NCBI GenBank assembly: GCA_947601655.1
Contig: CANQGG010000003.1
Span: forward strand, 18,857-82,856
Length of the DNA: 64,000 nucleotides
Direction of reading: 5' to 3'
Source of the DNA: an uncultured Akkermansia sp.
GTDB taxonomy: Bacteria > Verrucomicrobiota > Verrucomicrobiia > Verrucomicrobiales > Akkermansiaceae
In this document: positions 29,460 through 61,700 of the stretch, piece after piece
Position numbering within the stretch: position 1 is the stretch's first letter
How the letters are laid out: each line of letters starts with the position of its first letter
Program-made: the position numbers and the translations under genes
The notes under the pieces: model-generated
Databases searched by the model: none
What the model was told of the DNA's origin: nothing
Seen by the model: the letters and a program-made list of their open reading frames with translations, nothing else

Positions 29460-29907
29460 TCAAACGCATTGGGAGGATGGACCATGTACCGATGGACCAT
29501 TTGAGATGTACCATGGACCATGTACCGTGTACCATGTATTAAGTTTGCGCGCTGGCGCGCGAAGCTGCGAAGCTTTAGCTGAGGTGGAGGGTTCAACATA
29601 AGCGTTATTGCGTTCAAAAGGTTCTCGGCTATGCAGAGCCGTATCCACCGCTCTGCTACATGGTACAAAACTGCCGACGGCCGTAAGGCAGTTTGGACAA
29701 AAGCGCAGCTTTTGCCCGCAGGGCGAACAGCCGTGAGGCGGCTGTGAGTCATCGTCCATCTGTATATGGTACATCTCAAGAACCTTTCCTGACACAAAAA
29801 GCGCATTGATTCAGAAATTTACCTTGCTCCTGCTTCGCAGCTTCGCGAGCAAAGCTCGCCAAATTCCCTACATGGTACATCGGTACATGGTCCATGGTAC
29901 ATCTCAA
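29460..29907. repeat. MITE-like element El3 (right border missing)
   Basis: Left border TCAAACGCATTGGGAGGATGG; 29561-29878 is a direct repeat of 31308-31625 with one mismatch seen. Confidence 0.85.
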
Positions 29908-30174: not shown

Positions 30175-31143
30175 ATGAGAATTCATCCTTTTTTCTACAC
30201 TGTGCTTACTTTGCCCTCAGTTTCCTCCCTCCTCTGGGCAGATATCTCCATGGGGGTTCCTGCTGTGGCAAATCTGCCGCGCCAGGGCGTCTATCACAGC
30301 GACCTGCTCGCCTCAAATGCCGTGCATGCTGTCTTCAAGGGCATTCGCTCCATCCCTGTAGTGGACCTCGCTGTCCCCTCCACGGCCTCGGAGGAAGTGG
30401 CGGTCTTTGAGGTGAAGCAAAACCTCGCTCACCGCCGCTACGACCGCATGGGCGATGGCGCGCTGAACGTCGGCAAGCTGTTTTCTGTTTCCCTGGCGGC
30501 GGATGTCCCCGGTCAGGATGCCGACGTGGGACGACAAATTCGGGAAATGAAGCCGGGAGATGAAGCCTTGCTGAATATTGATCATATCTACCTCTTCCGC
30601 GAGGAGGGCAACGAAAATGTGCGCGCCTGCACTCGCTTTGCCAAAGTAGAACCACGCGTGGATGCGGCGGCTCCCGCAAACGGTGCGCCGGAATCAGCTT
30701 CCGGAGAGGACAAGCCGAGCGCGAATCCTGTCCCCGGCAGCCCCGCGAGTGCAACCCCTCCCCGGCAGGCTGAGCCCGACTCTCCCGCGGGGGATACCCA
30801 GACCATCGCTCCTCTCTCCTCTGTCACCTCGGGGACGACTTCGAGCTATGCCTCCAGTGTGGAGTCCCGTATCTCAATCGTTCCGGACGGCAAGGGGGGC
30901 GTGCGTCGTATGAAAGTCGAGACACGTCGCGAATGGGTCAACGGTGAAGACACCCCGCGCGTGCGCAAATTCATCAACGATGTGGAGGTTGATCCGACCA
31001 CTGATCGCCCCCTTTCTCAGGATAAACCGGCTGCTCCTCCGGCGGGGTCGGATACGGAGCCCGGCAAACAGACTGACAAAGCTCCGGCCGAGTCGGGTAA
31101 AGACTCCGAACCGACTCAGATTGCGCCTGAATTCGGTTTCTAA
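30175..31143 (+). CDS. Hypothetical exported protein with low-complexity Pro/Ser-rich C-terminal half
   Basis: 322-aa ORF, N-terminal hydrophobic segment; located between El3 and El4. Confidence 0.65.
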   Translation: MRIHPFFYTVLTLPSVSSLLWADISMGVPAVANLPRQGVYHSDLLASNAVHAVFKGIRSIPVVDLAVPSTASEEVAVFEVKQNLAHRRYDRMGDGALNVGKLFSVSLAADVPGQDADVGRQIREMKPGDEALLNIDHIYLFREEGNENVRACTRFAKVEPRVDAAAPANGAPESASGEDKPSANPVPGSPASATPPRQAEPDSPAGDTQTIAPLSSVTSGTTSSYASSVESRISIVPDGKGGVRRMKVETRREWVNGEDTPRVRKFINDVEVDPTTDRPLSQDKPAAPPAGSDTEPGKQTDKAPAESGKDSEPTQIAPEFGF

Positions 31144-31227: not shown

Positions 31228-31686
31228 TTTTTAGGGCAAACACATTGGGAGGATGTACCATGTACCGATGGACCCTGGACCATGTTGGAATTTAGCGCGC
31301 TACGCGCGAAGCTGCGAAGCTTTAGCTGAGGTGGAGGGTTCAACATAAGCGTTATTGCGTTCGAAAGGTTCTCGGCTATGCAGAGCCGTATCCACCGCTC
31401 TGCTACATGGTACAAAACTGCCGACGGCCGTAAGGCAGTTTGGACAAAAGCGCAGCTTTTGCCCGCAGGGCGAACAGCCGTGAGGCGGCTGTGAGTCATC
31501 GTCCATCTGTATATGGTACATCTCAAGAACCTTTCCTGACACAAAAAGCGCATTGATTCAGAAATTTACCTTGCTCCTGCTTCGCAGCTTCGCGAGCAAA
31601 GCTCGCCAAATTCCCTACATGGTACACGGTACATGGTCCATGGTACATCTCAAATGGTCCATGGTACATCCCAATGCGTTTACCCT
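31228..31686. repeat. MITE-like element El4
   Basis: Left AGGGCAAACACATTGGG, right CCCAATGCGTTTACCCT; long direct repeat with El3. Confidence 0.87.
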
Positions 31687-31945
31687 GAATCCTCATGTGA
31701 AACACGAGCTCCACACTCAGGGAACAGGAGTCCCCAATTTCCTCCTATCCCCCTCTGCGACCGCCGAATCAATCCATCACCCCCCGAATAAACGTGAGTT
31801 GAACTTGCATGCGAGACGCAGATTTCCCTCCACGTAGAAAGTAACTCAAGCGCATTCTGCATATCATATTCGCCAACGGTGCAATATTTGCTTGTACGCC
31901 GAGGTAAAAATTGGTAGAGTGTCTGCTGCCTTGTAACGGTTTATT

Positions 31946-34900
31946 ATGTCAAATATTGTCGCTACCCCCCCCCGATTTGTTATTAGCTTATATTAAGCGT
32001 TTTATAACATATATGATCGTTGGCGTGCTGATTTGCCTAAGCGTAGCGAATGGTCAGAAGAAGGAAGCGGCGCCGGTTCCGCCGCAGCAGGGGGTGGAGC
32101 TGCTCTTCCCGGCAGGCACGGGGAAGCACGCGAAAGGCGCCAAGCTCAGCAAGGAAGAAAAACTTGCCGATGCTCTGCTCAAGAAGCTGAAAGCCATCGA
32201 AAAGGGAGGGAACGTGAACGCCGCAGACAAGCGCGGTCAGACCGCCCTCATGCACGCCGCGGCGGCGAATAACCGCCTCGCCGCCTGCTGGCTCATAGCC
32301 AAAGGAGCGAATGCCACCATCAAGAGCTTAAAAGGAGAAAAAGCGGCGGAGTTAACAAAGGACAAAAACCTGCAGGCTTTCCTGGAAGCATGCAGCGTGG
32401 ACAGACGTTCGCTTCCGGACGAGGAGAAGAAACAATTGCAGGCGAAATATCCGGATCCCGACGAGGTTCACTCCTTGATTCAACGATGTCGGGGGAAGGA
32501 TTCACCGGAAAATCTGAAATTGTTGACGCAACTATTGAGGTTGGGATATTCCCCCTCCCCGAATTATTCGTTCTATACCCTCGATCCTCTCCTCGCGACC
32601 TTGCTTTCGAGGCACGGACGCACTCTCGCTGCCGAAGGGCAAACTGGATATTTTGGGCCCGAATTAGCTCGCCTTCTGACTGCTTTGGGCATCAAGATCG
32701 GTAATGATGACGCGCTCTCCCATGCCCGGATAGCCATGCTTCTGGATGATGTTGACGCCTTACGCAAGGTCGTCACAGCTCACCCAGACATAGTCAAAAA
32801 TCGTGGTCAAGCAAGTCAAATCATTGCTGGTCTCGGCTCGCCGGAAACACTACAAGTTCTCATTGAGGCAGGGCTTGACCCAAAGCTCTCATGGAACGGA
32901 AGCTATAAAGATTCGAAAGATTGCTTCATTGAGGATATACTCACAGGACCACGCCGTAGTGCAGCAGGAATTCGCGCGCTGGCAGCTGCCGGAGCGCCCC
33001 TTCCGGTGCACAGCGAACGAAGAAATGTTCTGACTGCCGACATGGAAGATCATTCCTATGATCCGGAAGTGATCGATGCTCTGATTGACGCAGGGGCGGA
33101 CGTCAATGCCATCGGTAGTGGAAAACGAGACCGGAGGGGAGCGCCCTCAGGACTCCCGCCCCTGGTTCTTGCTGCCATGCAATATGGTGAGCAAGCTGTG
33201 AGTCATCTGCTGAGCAAGGGAGCTCAAATAAACGCGCGGTGGGTGGCGCCAGGGACACCTTTTGATGGTCGAACCGCCCTGTATTCCGCTATTATCCAGG
33301 GAAGTCCGGAAGTAGTACGGCTTCTTCTGCGAAAAGGAGCAGATACCAGGGCTATACCCGAGGGTAGGAAAAGTGTTCTCAAGCTGGCTGTAAGCTCAGG
33401 AAATTACGATAAAATCAAAGCGCTTCTTGACCACGGCGTCCCCATGGAGGACGATGTGCTGCAAAGCCTTCCCAGCGATACAAATAAACCATCGGCCGAT
33501 GAGATAGAAAAGCTTGCTTTTTCCCTGCTTGAGCACGGGGCAAAGGTCCAATCTGTCGACACCAAAAATGGCTACACACCCCTCATGTCCCTGGGCTGGC
33601 TGAGCGAGCGCATCGCCAAACGGCTCCTCGACGACGGCGCAGATCCCAACGCGATTGCAGAGGAAGATGGCGTTAAGCTGTGCGCACTGGGTCTCACACT
33701 GCAACGCGGTCGGTCCGATATTGCGAAGTATCTGCAACAGCGCGGGGCGAAAATGGTCGGAGACCTCCTTCTCGCCAAGCCCGAGGACATGCGCGCAATG
33801 CTTGAGGCCGGCGCCAGTGTCCCTGAGGACTTATTCAAAAAGATGAACTTTTCTGCCATAGGCTCCCACGGAAACCCTACAGCCGGCCATGCTCCGGAAT
33901 TAACCCTCGAAGAACTTACGGAAGCCGCAAAGATCCTGCGCGATGCGGGAGCCAAGCCAACGATGCGCTGTATGTATAACTACAATTTGGGGGACGCAGG
34001 AGTACCGGCGCTTCTGGCTGCCGGGACTGATCCGAATGAAAAAAATGAAAGGGATGAATACTTTTTTCTCCACACTCTAGTCCCGAGAATTACCTCTCTC
34101 TTCATCAAAGCTGGTGTGAACGTCAATTTACAAGACAAAGAAGGCAACACGGCCCTCATGCTCGTTTGCCAAACAGGACCGGGATATGTTGGACAGCAAG
34201 AGCTACTCGTTCTCCTGCTCAAAGCCGGGGCCGACCCAAACATCAAAAACAAGGAAGGCAAGACCGCCCTACAGTACGCCAGGGAGAAGAAAGCTGACGA
34301 CTTCATCAAGCTCCTCCAGGAACACGGCGCGAAGGAGGAAAAGAGCGACCTCCCCAATGACAAAAAGAGTGACCCCAATGCGAAGGACAAGGAGGGCCAC
34401 ACTCCGCTGATGCGGGCTGCGCTCGACCCCGACGGTCTCGACCGCCTCAAGGAATGCATCGCCCAAAAAGGGGATGTGAACGCACACGATAACAAAGGAT
34501 GTACCGCCCTGCGCCTGCTCTTTGGGCAGGATGGCGATATCAACAGTCGCGTGCAGGAACTCCTCAACGCCAAGGCCGATGTCAATCTCGGCGATTTCAC
34601 CGACTTCACCCCGCTCATGACTGCCGCCTGCTACAAGGATACCGCCAAGCGTCGCTTCCGCGTGCAGCGTCTTATCAATGCCAGGGCCAATGTCAATGCT
34701 GCAGGAAAAGCGGGAAACACGGCTGCCATGCACCTGCTGCTCCACTATGATGACCCGGACACGCTGCGCATGCTGCTGGACGCCGGAGCGAAACCGGATC
34801 ACAAAAACGGCGAAGGCAAAACGTTGCTCGACATAGCTTCGGAGAACCACCGGAGCGCCTGCCTCAAGCTGTTGAATGAACGTAAGACCCCCGGCTCGAA

Positions 34901-35522
34901 AACTGATCCCAAGGCGCGCGATTCTGAAGGCCGCACGGCGCTGATGCAGGCTGCGCTCGACCCCGACGGTCTCGACCGCCTCAAAGAATGCATCGCCCAA
35001 AAAGGGGATGTGAACGCACGCGACAACAAAGGATGTACCGCCCTGCGCCTGCTCTTTGGGCAGGATGGCGATATCAACGACCGCGTACAGGAACTCCTCA
35101 ACGCCAAAGCTGATGTCAATCTCGGCGATTCCAACGGCTTCACCCCGCTCATGGCTGCCGCCTGCTACAACGATACCGCCAAGCGTCGCTTCCGCGTGCA
35201 GCGTCTCATCAATGCCAAGGCCAATGTCAATGCTGCAGGAAAAGCGAGGAACACGGCTGCCCTGCACCTGCTGCTCCACTATGATGACCCGGACACACTG
35301 CGCATGCTGCTGGACGCCGGAGCGAAGCCGGATCACAAAAACGGCGAAGACAAGACCATGCTCGACCTGGCTATGGAAAACCACCGGAGCGCCTGTATCA
35401 AGCTGTTGAACGAGCGTTCCCCCGCCTCCTCCTCCGGTCACCCGTGGTGGCCCATTATCGGAGGCGCATTGCTCGTTCTCCTCATCGGCTGCGTTGGTCT
35501 CCGCCCACGCCGCAGAAAATAA
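31946..35522 (+). CDS. Giant ankyrin-repeat exported protein with C-terminal TM + basic tail; ATG 31946 separated from the main ORF by a C9 tract (frame offset)
   Basis: Many GANxNxxDxxGxTALxxA repeats; signal-like segment; C-term WWPIIGGALLVLLIGCVGLRPRRRK. In-frame alternative start ATG 32013. Confidence 0.85.
31965..31973 (+). repeat. Homopolymeric C9 tract
   Basis: GCTA-CCCCCCCCC-GATTTG. Confidence 0.95.
34381..34890 (+). repeat. Long ankyrin module copy A (about 500 bp)
   Basis: KDKEGHTPLMRAALDPDGLDRLKECIAQKGDVNAHDNKGCTALRLLFGQDGDINSRVQELLNAKADVNLGD...; near-identical to 34909-35410 and 38404-38917. Confidence 0.9.
34909..35410 (+). repeat. Long ankyrin module copy B
   Basis: RDSEGRTALMQAALDPDGLDRLKECIAQKGDVNARDNKGCTALRLLFGQDGDINDRVQELLNAKADVNLGDSNGFTPLMAAACY... 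Confidence 0.9.
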
Positions 35523-35544
35523 GAGACGCAAATCTTGTTTTATC

Positions 35545-35572
35545 TTGCTTTTCCTTCTGTAACAGATATACT
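35545..35572 (+). promoter_or_regulatory. sigma70-like promoter of second ankyrin gene
   Basis: TTGCTT-N16-TATACT; ATG at 35598. Confidence 0.6.
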
Positions 35573-35597
35573 GCGCATAGTTTCACACATTCCCTTC

Positions 35598-38500
35598 ATG
35601 AACATGCACATCGCCGCTACCCCCCCCCGTTTTTGTTATTAGCTTATTGTAAGCGTTTTATAGATTTTTCTCTCACCTGCGTCCTGTTTTGTCTTGGCGT
35701 GGTGAGCGGGCAGGAAAAGGAAGCGGCAATGCCCGCACCGCAGCAGGGAGTGGAGCTGCTCTTTCCAATCGGCACAGGGAAGCAGGAGAAAGGGGGAAAA
35801 CTCAGCAAGGAACAGAAGAAGGCGGCGTCCCTGCTCAAGAAGCTGAAAGCCATCGAAAAAGGCGGCGACGTCAATGCCGTAGACAAGCTCGGACAGACCG
35901 CCCTCATGCATGCCGCCGCGCAGGACAACCGCCTTGCCGTCTGCTGGCTCGTAGCGAAGGGAGCGGATGCGTCCATCAAGAGCAAGAAGGGGAAAACGGC
36001 GGGCAGCGTGGCTCACGGAGACATGGCCGATTTTCTGACGGCGCTCGAGAAAGAAAAACAGCCGCTGAGCCGCCAGGAAGCACGTGACATGCTCACGTAT
36101 CAAGGCAGAAAAATGGGAGAGGTCGAAGAGAGCGATTTCTCCGGACAATATAGCGAGGCGGCAGACGTGATTCTTTTTCTGCGAGCGAAGCCGATTACTA
36201 AGGAGCCCTGGTCAAAGGATATCAATCAGTTGTTGAAAGAGGAAGAGGAAAAGGGATGGTATTCTGGTGGAGCCCCGGTGAACCTTGCTCTGCTTTATCG
36301 CCTCGGTGCGAGGAAGTTCTCTTTCCCGGAGGATCTCTCCAGCGTGGACGCGGAACCGCTGCAACTCCTCCGCGCACTCGGGGTGAAGACAGATATTGTC
36401 GATCCCGTACTTCAGATGAGGATCGCGCTTCAGTTGAAGCAAAAAGAAACCGTGCTTGCGCTCCTGAAACAAGATCCGTCTCTGCTCCAAAATCCGGATA
36501 TATTCTCCTCCATCTCCGATGAGAAAACACTGCAAGCTCTGCTGGATGCCGGACTGGACGCCAAGCACGAAAAGCTCATGGAGACGGTCATCAAAAAGGG
36601 CGACGGGGCCATGCTGCGAACACTCCTCAAGTCGGGAGCAACGCTCCGGGATCCGGACAAAATTCTGAAGGAGTTTTACTACAGAGGCGCAGACTTTGTC
36701 CTCGCCCTCATTGACGCCGGAGCCAATGCCGATGCTCTGAACATATTGTCCGTGGAAATAATACCCTACGGCTATAAATCTTCAACGCTTCTTCACCGAG
36801 CAGCGTATAAGGTTAACCTCACGGATGTACAGCTCCTGCTTGCCCACGGAGCGAACCCCAACGCACCGAGCAAAAAGACAAAGGATGATCAAAAAGAGCC
36901 TTACGGCATGACCCCGTTGATGGCAGCTGCCAACTCTGCAATGTCGACGAAAGACGCTGTGAACCGCACCGAAATTGTGAAACGTCTGCTGGAGGCCGGG
37001 GCAGACGTGCACGCCAAAGATTCCGCAGGGAATGGCGTCATCTATTATGCCGTTTGCGGCGGGAGAGGAAAACCTAATGAAGACCACCCCTCCTACCGCG
37101 TGAGCAAGAAGGCGGAAGCGGACATCCTGAGCATGGTAGAGCTGCTGATCAAAGCAGGGGCGGACGTACCCAAGGATATCCTCCTTACGGAACTGCGTCC
37201 GGAAATATCCTCTGCCGGATGGGAGAAGCTGGCCCTCATGTTGCTTGATGCCGGCGCCGACCCGCTGGCAAAAAGTGAAAATAAATGGACCAACGGATGG
37301 ACCACCCTCATGGTCAACGGCATTTGGGGCGGCAAGATTGCCAAGCGGCTGCTGGATGCCGGAGTAGACCCCAGCGTAAAATGCAAGATAGGAAGTTGGG
37401 AGACCTCCGCGATGAGTCTCGCTATGAAGGAAGGTGCGGTGGAGGTCGTGAAGCTGCTCAAGGAAAAGGGAATCGACCCCGGTGAACTGGAAGTCGTGGA
37501 ACCGGAGAAACTGGAACCCCTGCTCAAACTCGGCGCGCGCATTCCCAAGGACATGACCAACCGCCTCCTGGGTAATGTTCTCGGCTTCCACGTATACCGT
37601 CCTTGCCATCCTTACGAGGACTACGTTGACATCATCCAAATCCTCAAGCGCCATGGCTACACCCCCAATCTTATTGCCTGGACACAGGACGAAAGCGTCC
37701 TCCACACAAGTGATTTTAACCAATACGTCCTCCGAGCATTTTTCAAAACGGGCGAAAATCCGAATGAAGTTGATGAAAACGGTGACTCCCTCCTTTTCCA
37801 CTTCTTATCCACAAAAAAATTCGACCTGCCCACCCGGGAAGTGGCCCGCGCGCTCCCTATTTTCCGTGAAGCCGGGGCAGACTTTAACCACAAAAACAAG
37901 GCTGGTAACTCCCTCCTCACCAACCTTGCTTCTTCTAATGCATGGATTGTTAATGGGGTGTTACCCGCCTTTATTGAAGCAGGAGGTGACGTGAACAAGC
38001 CGATCAACCAAGATGGGCAAACCCCGCTTTTCTACGCAGAGGATGCGGAAACGATTGCCCAGCTCCTTCGTGCCGGCGCCGATGCACACGTGCGAGACAC
38101 CAGCGGAAGAACGCCTCTCTTCCCTTGCCACATTAGACGAAACACTGAAGCAGTGCGTCTTCTCATGCAACACGGCGTCCGCATCAACGCACAGGACAAC
38201 GATGGCAACACCGCCCTCATGATAGCCGTGACAAGGAATGAAAGTAGTAGCGTTCAAGCTCTCCTAGATGCCGGAGCAGATCCGAACATCAAGAATAAAG
38301 CGGGCAAGACCACCTTGCAGATCGCTCAGGAGAATAAAAGCTACTACCGAGATGAAATTGTGAAATTCCTCAAGGAGCACGGCGCGAAGGAGGAAAAGGT
38401 CGACCCCAACGCGAAAGATAAAGAGGGACGCACAACGCTGATGCAGGCTGCCCTCGACCCCGACGGTCTCAGCCGCCTCAAGGAATGCATCGCCCAAAAA

Positions 38501-38938
38501 GGGGATGTGAACGCACGCGACAACAAAGGATGTACTGCCCTGCGCCTGCTCTTGGGGCAGGATGGCGATATCAACAGTCGCGTGCAGGAACTCCTCAACG
38601 CCAAAGCCGATGTCAATCTCGGCGATTCCAACGGCTTCACCCCACTCATGGCTGCCGCCTGCTACAAAGATGCCGTCAAACGTCGCTTCCGCGTGCAGCG
38701 TCTCATCGGTGCCAAGGCCAATGTCAATGCCGCAGCAAAAATGGGGAACACGGCTGCCATGCACCTGCTGCTCCACTATGATGACCCGGACACACTGCGC
38801 ATGCTGCTGGACGCCGGAGCGAAACCGGACCACAAAAACGGCGAAGGCAAGACCATGCTCGACATAGCTTCGGAGAACCACCGCAACGCCTGCATCAAAC
38901 TGTTGAACGAGCGTTTCCCCGCCTCCGGACATCAGTGA
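35598..38938 (+). CDS. Giant ankyrin-repeat exported protein (paralogue); ATG 35598 separated from the main ORF by a C9 tract (frame offset)
   Basis: Main ORF frame runs 35444-38938; ankyrin repeats; N-term PPPFLLLAYCKRFIDFSLTCVLFCLGVVSGQEKEAA paralogous to the upstream gene. Confidence 0.85.
35620..35628 (+). repeat. Homopolymeric C9 tract
   Basis: GCTA-CCCCCCCCC-GTTTTTG. Confidence 0.95.
38404..38917 (+). repeat. Long ankyrin module copy C (in second ankyrin gene)
   Basis: KDKEGRTTLMQAALDPDGLSRLKECIAQKGDVNARDNKGCTALRLLLGQDGDINSRVQELLNAKADVNLGDSNGFTPLMAAACY... Confidence 0.9.
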
Positions 38939-38969
38939 TGGTACTCATCAAATCCACTCTCTGATCAAG

Positions 38970-39255
38970 GCAAACGCATTGGAATGAAGTGGAACAACAG
39001 AGAACATCGTGTCATGTACCATGTACCGATGTACCATGTTGAAATTTAGCGCGCTACGCGCGAATCTGCGAAGCGAGAGCAAGCCGAATTTCTGAACCGA
39101 TGCAGTTTGGGGACCGGAAAGGTTTTTGGGTAAGCTGAGCCGTCTTGCAGCCCTGATGATGCAAAAAACTGCACAACGCGCACATTATCAATACATCCGT
39201 ACATGGCACATGGTCCATGGTACACAGGCAAATGCATTCCCAATGCGTTTGCCCT
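38970..39255. repeat. MITE-like element El5
   Basis: GGCAAACGCATTGGAATG ... GGCAAATGCATTcccAATGCGTTTGCCCT; internal homology to El6. Confidence 0.87.
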
Positions 39256-39274
39256 GCCCCAAACCAAAGTGCGC

Positions 39275-48804: not shown

Positions 48805-48951
48805 CTGCGCGCGGATTATACGCCCTTCTCTCCCAGAAATCAAGCCTTCCGTATATCCTTCCATGGCAAAAGCGCCTGACGTGTGCAATTATCGCGAAGA
48901 AGGAAAAGGGACATGGGGTGCGACCCATTGAGATTATTTTGAATAGCGGTC

Positions 48952-49220
48952 AGGGCAAACGCATTTGAGAGAAGTGAAGCAGCAGAGAACATCGTGTAAT
49001 GTGCCATAGATCGTGTACCATGTAAGGAATTTGGCGAGCTCTGCTCGCGAAGCTGCGAAGCGAGAGCAAGCCGAATTTCCTAATCGGCGCAGCTTTGGGA
49101 GCGGAAAGGTTTTTGGATAAGCTGAGCAGTCTTGTAGCCCTGATGTTGCAAAAAACGGCACAGAGCGCACATTATCAATACATGGTACACAGGAAAACGC
49201 ATTCCCGATGCTTTTGCCCT
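48952..49220. repeat. MITE-like element El6 with 9-bp target site duplication GAATAGCGG
   Basis: AGGGCAAACGCATTTGAG ... GCTTTTGCCCT; flanks 48941-48949 and 49221-49229 both GAATAGCGG. Confidence 0.9.
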
Positions 49221-49238
49221 GAATAGCGGCAAAAAAAA

Positions 49239-49267
49239 TCGACAACAGTTTGCGTATGCGGTAGAAT
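49239..49267 (+). promoter_or_regulatory. sigma70-like promoter
   Basis: TCGACA-N17-TAGAAT; ATG 49275. Confidence 0.55.
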
Positions 49268-49274
49268 GGAGAGG

Positions 49275-50084
49275 ATGATGAAATGGCTCGTTCATATTTT
49301 CTTTCTGCTCGCCGTGATTGCACTGGTGGCTCTGCGTAGTGTGGGGGGAGAAGCTATTGCAAACAAGGCGGATTTGTGGATTTTTGTGGTGTGTATCACC
49401 GTGACGGTTGTGGATGCGGCGTTGGCGATTGCTGCGTCATTCACACAACGTCCCGTTCTGGATAAAACAGTGTGGGCTTGTACATTTTTCGTGTTGGGGT
49501 GTGCCCTCTGGGCAGTGCGAATGTTCCCCCCCGACGGAGAAGAAGACATGTACAACAAAATTCGACAGCAGGAAAACAATCCTTACGTGCAGGATGAAGA
49601 GGGGGAAACTCTCTTTACGCGGGCGGCAGCTCTCGGAAAGGACAAGGAATTGCGGCGCATGATTCAGCAGCAGGCCCCGACAATGAATCAGCTCATCGAG
49701 GCAGGTTATCGCGCGGCAGAGGGCAATCACGTCGCTGTCCTGGAGGAACTGGCGCGCGTGGGGCTGAGTGCTTCCGCCGCCCGGGACGGAACGCCTCTTC
49801 TGCATGCTGCTGCTCAATATGGAAGATGCGACGCCATACGATGGCTCATCATGCGAGGTGCTGCCGCGAATGGGCGAGACGCCGATGGAAGCACTGCTCT
49901 CATCCAGGCGGCGCAGAGCGGAAGCGTTGCAGCGGTGCGTTTACTTCTGGAATTAGGGGCGGATACCAAGTTGCGCGACGCGACAGGCCTGCGCGCAGAA
50001 GATTACGCTCGCGACAGAGAAATGTACAACCTGCTTGCTCCCCCCGCCAATCCTGACGCCGCTCCGTCTCAGCAATCTTTCTGA
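49275..50084 (+). CDS. Small ankyrin-repeat membrane protein
   Basis: Two N-terminal TM segments; GTPLLHAAAQYGRCDAIRWLIMRGAAANGRDADGSTALIQAAQSGSVAAVRLLLELGAD. Confidence 0.8.
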   Translation: MMKWLVHIFFLLAVIALVALRSVGGEAIANKADLWIFVVCITVTVVDAALAIAASFTQRPVLDKTVWACTFFVLGCALWAVRMFPPDGEEDMYNKIRQQENNPYVQDEEGETLFTRAAALGKDKELRRMIQQQAPTMNQLIEAGYRAAEGNHVAVLEELARVGLSASAARDGTPLLHAAAQYGRCDAIRWLIMRGAAANGRDADGSTALIQAAQSGSVAAVRLLLELGADTKLRDATGLRAEDYARDREMYNLLAPPANPDAAPSQQSF

Positions 50085-53499: not shown

Positions 53500-53556
53500 T
53501 TGATAAATTCGCTTCCGGGGAGTTCGGAGTAGAGGACGAAAGAATGCCTCCTCCAT

Positions 53557-53792
53557 GGCAAACGCATTTGAGAAAAGTGAAGCAACAGAGAAAATGCTCT
53601 TGTTGACTGGTATCATTGTTGATACGCATTAAAAATCAGGGTAACAAGGGGACATCATGATGAGAGCTCTCAGGAAGTCTCCGCATACGTTCATGATTCG
53701 AAAAAACTGCGCAAAGCGCACATTATCAATACATGGTACATCGTCCATGGTACATGGTACATGAGCAAACGCATTTCCAATGCGTTTGCCCT
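53557..53792. repeat. MITE-like element El7 with 8-bp target site duplication AATGCCTC
   Basis: GGCAAACGCATTTGAG ... AGCAAACGCATTTCCAATGCGTTTGCCCT; AATGCCTC at 53543-53550 and 53793-53800. Confidence 0.85.
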
Positions 53793-53811
53793 AATGCCTC
53801 ATCCTCCGTAC

Positions 53812-60689: not shown

Positions 60690-61045
60690 AGGACAAACGC
60701 ATTGGGAATGCACTTGTTCATGGACCCTTTCATGGACCCTTTCATGGACCATGTACCGATGTACGATGACTCACAGCCGCCTCACGGCTGTTCGCCCTGC
60801 GGGCAAAAGCTGCGCTTTTGTCCAAACTGCCTCACGGCCGTCGGCAGTTTTGGACCATGTAGGAAGTTAGCGCGCTGGCGCGCGAAGCTGCGAAGCTTTA
60901 GCTGAGGTGGTGGATAAATCATGCGTGGTGATTAGTCAGAAAGGTTTGTGGATAAGCGAAGCCAGGGAAACGGCTTTGCTACATGGTACCATGTGGATGT
61001 ACCATGTATTGATAATGTGCGTGTTGCGCAGGTTTTTTCGAATAG
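60690..61045. repeat. MITE-like element El8 (rearranged, right border not found)
   Basis: AGGACAAACGCATTGGGAATGC; inverted hairpin module plus non-inverted GCGCGCTGGCGCGCGAAGCTGCGAAGCTTTAGCTGAGG module. Confidence 0.8.
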
Positions 61046-61091: not shown

Positions 61092-61700
61092 TTGTTGTCA
61101 TGATCTTTTCATTCGTCGTGACAAGCTGCTTAAATCCGTTTGAATATTCCCTTTATTATCTGATTCCTTCTCGCGCAACATCCGTTTGCTATTTATTGAT
61201 AATATTCATATTGAAAAATTTATGGATTAATCATTGCATCGAAAAAAAGGGGGAGAAATCGGCACCTTTTTCATCACAAAAAACGATCGTTGTCGTGGTT
61301 TTTTGAATTCATCGTGCCAAATTGCTTAAATCCGTTTGAATATTCCCCTTTATTATCTGATTCCTCCTCGCGCAACATCCGTTTGCTATTTATTGATAAT
61401 ATTTATATTGCAAAATTTATGAGGTAATCATTGCATCGAAAAAATGGTAGGCAGTCAGCGTCTTTTTCCATTGCAAAAACGATCGTTGTCGTGGCCTTTT
61501 CATTCGTCGTGCCAAATTGCTTAAATCCGTTTGAATATTCCCTTTATTATCTGATTCCTTCTCGCGCAACATCCGCTTGCTATTTATTGATAATATATAT
61601 ATTGCAAAATTTATGGATTAATCATTGCATCGAAAAAAAGGGGAGAAATCGGCGCATTTTTCATCGCAAAAAACTCTCGTTGTCGTGATCTTTTTTGGAA
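61092..61700. repeat. Tandem array of about 195-bp AT-rich units (three copies plus partial)
   Basis: GCTTAAATCCGTTTGAATATTCC recurs at 61128, 61324, 61519 (spacing 196 and 195). Confidence 0.9.

Follow-up and report, generated by a model that had tools for sequence, protein, structure and literature searches.

El6, a mosaic MITE of an uncultured Akkermansia, very probably mobilised in trans by an ISAs1-family transposase

Introduction

Insertion sequences (ISs) of the ISAs1 family are 1.2–1.5 kb long and generate target-site duplications (TSDs) of 8–10 bp; a search of the open-licence literature for a published ISAs1 TSD length returned nothing usable. Reports on bacterial MITEs describe movement by an IS with the same terminal inverted repeats (TIRs), where one is known (PMC6382973, PMC3542288). 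MITEAba12 of Acinetobacter (PMC6382973) and those described from Anabaena sp. 90 (PMC3542288) are short, multi-copy, intergenic, TIR-bounded and non-coding, and the family described here shares all of these properties. No earlier description of Akkermansia MITEs was found in the open-licence papers searched.

The member analysed, El6, lies in a 64,000-nt stretch of DNA from an uncultured Akkermansia sp. (the window). A sequence-only reading had proposed that it is a MITE moved by a DDE transposase supplied in trans. On comparison with related genomes, we conclude that El6 very probably is such a non-autonomous element and that its movement depended on a transposase of the ISAs1 family acting in trans.

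Results

El6 measures 271 bp and carries TIRs of 15 nt (Table 1). Its sequence, coordinates and TIRs, together with the repeated GAATAGCGG, were checked against the DNA and match the sequence-only description. The junctions read GAATAGCGGT / CAGGGC...GCCCT / GAATAGCGGC, the G expected at the end of the right TIR being absent. An ORF scan found no ORF of at least 150 aa inside the element, which bears out the earlier statement that no plausible transposase ORF is present; El6 is thus a derivative and not an IS.

Table 1. Coordinates of El6, its parts and two relatives within the window.
Feature	Position	Strand	Basis or remark
El6, mosaic non-autonomous MITE (A-H-J-C-E)	48951–49221	+	No transposase ORF
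Left TSD copy, GAATAGCGGT	48941–48950	+	Sequence; family-wide 10-bp TSD register
Right TSD copy, GAATAGCGGC	49221–49230	+	9/10 match; terminal G of TIR lost
Left TIR, CAGGGCAAACGCATT	48951–48965	+	Identical to TIR of ISAs1-family ISs of sister species
Module A, L-end (CAGGGCAAACGCATTTGAGAGAAGTGAAGCAGCAGAGAA)	48951–48989	+	Alignment, module map
Module H, hairpin-rich, in place of core B	49026–49118	+	Tandem repeats in other copies
Module J, accompanies H in El6-type subfamily	49119–49150	+	Module map
Module C, common to A-B-C-E copies	49150–49185	+	Alignment, module map
Hairpin end E, imperfect 31-nt palindrome	49190–49220	-	Sequence
Canonical A-B-C-E relative	53554–53793	+	TSD ATGCCTCCTC/ATGCCTCATC, 9/10
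Closest in-window relative of El6	38966–39256	+	78% identity; no recognisable TSD

The sequence-only reading had assigned El6 a TSD of 9 bp, with two extra nucleotides (TC) at the left junction. The length was revised by comparison across the family, for which the flanks of 128 candidate TIR pairs, taken from fetched loci, were compared at lengths of 7–12 and in nine offset combinations. The family TIR was set as CAGGGCAAACGCATT, with C to the left of AGGG and G to the right of CCCT. A 10-bp direct repeat matching at 9/10 positions or better was found for 32 of the 128 pairs, while 200 shuffled pairings gave 0.35 on average and never more than 3. The TSD is hence 10 bp, and it is present on copies other than El6. 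The 96 pairs with no TSD at this threshold include chance, nested and decayed pairs. Both extra nucleotides at the left junction of El6 do exist, with the T forming the tenth base of the TSD and the C the first base of the TIR.

The TIR is enriched both locally and genome-wide. Within the window, AGGGCAAACGCATT has 23 matches at up to 3 mismatches (6.9 ± 2.2 expected), and the search of the whole genome, as suggested by the sequence-only reading, yielded 55 exact sites compared to none for the reversed control. BLAST with El6 gave 76 matches in its own genome (2.46 Mb, 109 contigs), and the L-end pattern was matched in 12 of 77 Akkermansia genomes. All of the relatives named earlier within the window were recovered, several of them truncated or degenerate. 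A candidate autonomous element, delimited by exact TIRs ~1.6 kb apart (C6:52580/54171), was rejected as it contains no transposase and consists of two separate MITEs. The relatives to which the neighbouring obg gene led are for the most part uncultured Akkermansia, and several of them come from the guts of rabbits, ruminants and horses; when named Akkermansia MAGs were searched for synteny at this gene, obg alone was recovered.

Sites with no element were found in sister species. Element E4 (genome G091, locus L100, 13121–13532) is absent in G094, where the site reads GTAAGTTTCGCATCTGAGC, while in G096 the same site holds a palindrome of 34 bp, CACGGCAAACGCATTTTCTAATGCGTTTGCCATG, flanked on either side by GTTTCGC (L272, 4511–4544). 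A single site therefore exists in three states among sister species: empty (G094), occupied by the palindrome (G096) and occupied by the full element (G091). E2 and E3, from the same locus as E4, are absent in G092, and E3 is also absent in G015. The expectation of empty sites thus holds for E4, with element absence for E2 and E3. The flank of El6 on the ORF and promoter side (AAAAAATCGACA...) is retained in both G013 and G093 with no element beside it. The opposite flank could not be aligned in either relative, and the evidence for an empty El6 site is therefore one-sided.

Solitary palindromes such as that of L272 bear on the nature of the mobile unit. Three of the seven checked (L032, L099 and L272) have flanking duplications of 7–8/10, with an expectation of 0.41 from a shuffled control, an overestimate given that the control includes self-pairings. 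It could be argued from these duplications, and from the L272 palindrome standing where G094 has an empty site, that the 31–34-bp palindromic end is itself a minimal transposable unit and that full MITEs arose from palindromes by acquiring cargo. We consider this improbable, since deletion between directly repeated TIRs (the L-end and the inner hairpin copy) would leave exactly a palindrome with a TSD; furthermore, TIRs only 3–4 nt apart would be unlikely to form a synaptic complex. We favour the view that solitary palindromes with TSD-like flanks are remnants of such deletions between directly repeated TIR copies rather than independent insertions.

A search of the MITE-bearing genomes with the PF01609 profile revealed transposase ORFs flanked by the same TIR in several sister species, so that an IS sharing the TIRs of El6, which the sequence-only reading had named as a point to check, does exist. 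Matches flanked by CAGGGCAAACGCATT are of the ISAs1 type (12 genomes). In G013, G094, G095 and G015 (with a broken ORF in the last), ISs of 1313–1315 bp begin and end with CAGGGCAAACGCATT or a variant of it that differs by one base, and more distant copies in G034 and G074 (protein 48% identical) are bounded on either side by the exact TIR. Perfect 10-bp TSDs flank the copies of G095 and G074; this TSD and the helper length both fit the ISAs1 range given above. The encoded protein of 383 aa matches PF01609 and PF13808 and scores 334–337 bits with NF033564 (cut-off 70); on these profile matches it is an ISAs1-family DDE transposase. One IS end and the hairpin ends of sister-species MITEs have 22 nt in common (CAGGGCAAACGCATTAGAAAAT), and beyond the terminal ~22 nt the MITE interior is not derived from the IS.

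El6's own genome gave no PF01609 match and contains only stop-bearing ISAs1 fragments, including a remnant on contig C72 with degenerate TIRs ~555 bp apart. Neither this assembly nor those of G091 and G024 yielded an intact ISAs1 transposase, despite the many MITE copies of the latter two; MAG assemblies may miss such repeats. The failure to find an intact gene of this family in El6's assembly, together with the occurrence of TSDs of ~10 bp in other DDE families, might suggest that another transposase family (e.g. IS4-like) moved the elements and that the ISAs1 TIR match arose by convergence. This is very unlikely in view of the 15/15 TIR match that several ISs show at each end, with the same TSD length, and of the finding that the TIR-flanked matches of the PF01609 search in 12 genomes are of the ISAs1 type.

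El6 sits between a homoserine dehydrogenase gene and an ankyrin-repeat gene (49266–50084), ~18 bp upstream of a promoter-like site, and is predicted to fold strongly on both strands (z ~ -5). That position and folding might be taken to indicate a static intergenic repeat kept for its function (a REP/ERIC-like hairpin, terminator or structured RNA), a reading we regard as scarcely credible given the 10-bp TSDs, the TIRs shared with an IS, the absences at orthologous sites, the lack of any Rfam match for El6 and the strong folding expected of inverted repeats in any case.

The canonical family member is about 220–240 bp long and has the order A-B-C-E, consisting of the L-end module A, core B, segment C and hairpin end E, the last comprising a TIR followed 3–4 nt away by an inverted TIR copy. 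El6 is non-canonical in that core B is exchanged for the 93-bp hairpin module H plus J. In its own end E, the right TIR (49207–49220, 2 mismatches) follows an inverted TIR copy at 49190–49203. In other elements, modules H, X and Y vary in order and orientation, are at times in tandem, and usually adjoin short repeats of the GGTACAT/GGTCCAT type. Tandem arrays of 2–3 H modules were seen at contig ends (G000 contigs C22, C25, C48, C56, C68 and C77; examples L009, L017 and L026). Given this position, the array lengths are probably underestimated, and the assembly is broken by these repeats.

Module Y (~98 nt, with several small hairpins) occurs in the window at 29665–29762 and 31412–31509, and reversed at 60758–60853. 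El6's genome has 11 copies that are 98–100% identical, and matches occur in 26 of 77 Akkermansia genomes. The best copies among G000, G024, G090 and G091 are 96–100% identical; between El6's genome and the best copies of the other three, identity is 96–97%, compared to only 71–73% in the sampled core region. Module Y has the appearance of a hairpin repeat that spreads on its own. A sub-threshold Rfam match near it was taken as chance; the Rfam search over the window returned one tRNA.

Several further repeats were observed in the window. Two elements 1.7 kb apart share an identical 300-nt stretch (29556–29855 and 31303–31602), either by recent duplication or by gene conversion, and between them lies a 322-aa ORF (30175–31143) with no Pfam match. 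Two large ORFs, of 1203 and 1164 aa, lie at 31911–38938. They contain 300-nt blocks that are duplicated internally, and the first ORF encodes many ankyrin repeats. Three tandem AT-rich copies of ~195 bp each (61094–61694; 69–94% identical to the first copy) adjoin the truncated element at 60690.

The ISAs1-family ISs of G013, G094, G015 and G095 are 91.5–94.3% identical at the DNA level, compared to 69.3–77.6% for one core region of the same genomes, a limited yardstick of divergence. Similarly, a G000 MITE on contig C6 is 88–89% identical to G091 copies, with the core region at 70.6%. The IS is far more alike between species than the core region, which suggests horizontal spread. Taken together, these identities point to horizontal transfer, and for the helper IS they indicate that spread across the genus was recent.

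Discussion

The TIR identity with ISs, the common 10-bp TSD, the multi-copy spread and the presence/absence differences between sister species are direct observations. The MITE ends are the same as those of the ISAs1 ISs in sister species, and the elements were hence most likely moved by an ISAs1-type transposase. From this we infer that an ISAs1-family transposase acts on El6-type MITEs, and that El6 itself arrived by transposition. The same-TIR ISs, 10-bp TSDs and element absences support, at the level of sequence comparison, the earlier proposal of a MITE served in trans by a DDE transposase.

In the proposed mechanism, El6 would retain only the ends of an ISAs1-family IS that the transposase recognises (the 15-bp TIR CAGGGCAAACGCATT) and no gene, with a simple end on one side and an end lengthened to a palindrome on the other. 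A DDE transposase of the ISAs1 family, acting in trans, would bind both TIRs and insert the element at staggered cuts, with gap repair leaving the 10-bp TSD. The interior of El6 is a mosaic, a hairpin module having replaced the canonical core. El6 has probably ceased to move, given the divergence of its right TIR and the failure to find an intact transposase in its assembly.

A more speculative extension, which we think unlikely to hold, is that the family forms a modular platform. In such a scheme, cassettes of hairpins (H, X, Y) with short repeats at their borders would be swapped and multiplied in tandem within a MITE shell. Mobilised by ISAs1, this shell would take them from one Akkermansia species to another, and the 31–34-bp palindromic end could exist by itself as a minimal insert that has a target duplication of its own.

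The El6 family is a real mobile element and a new MITE family of a well-known type. Its definition adds an abundant MITE family of gut Akkermansia, gives annotation exact boundaries to work from and names the transposase that is likely to be the helper, and the mosaic interior offers a natural case of cargo shuffling in a non-autonomous element. Mosaic cargo and a palindromic end are less usual.

With the ISAs1 family (NF033564; PF01609 and PF13808), the El6 family shares the TIR of the genus-specific ISAs1 copies and the 10-bp TSD, but it lacks a transposase gene and its interior beyond ~22 nt is not IS-derived. Compared to MITEAba12 and the Anabaena sp. 90 MITEs (PMC6382973, PMC3542288), the El6 family differs in its ISAs1-type TIR, in an interior built as a mosaic of hairpin modules with short repeats between them, and in having one end formed by a TIR palindrome. 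TIMEs, the Tn3-derived miniature elements, are likewise non-autonomous, TIR-based and able to form mosaics (PMC4133298); they belong to the Tn3 family, whereas the El6 family belongs with ISAs1.
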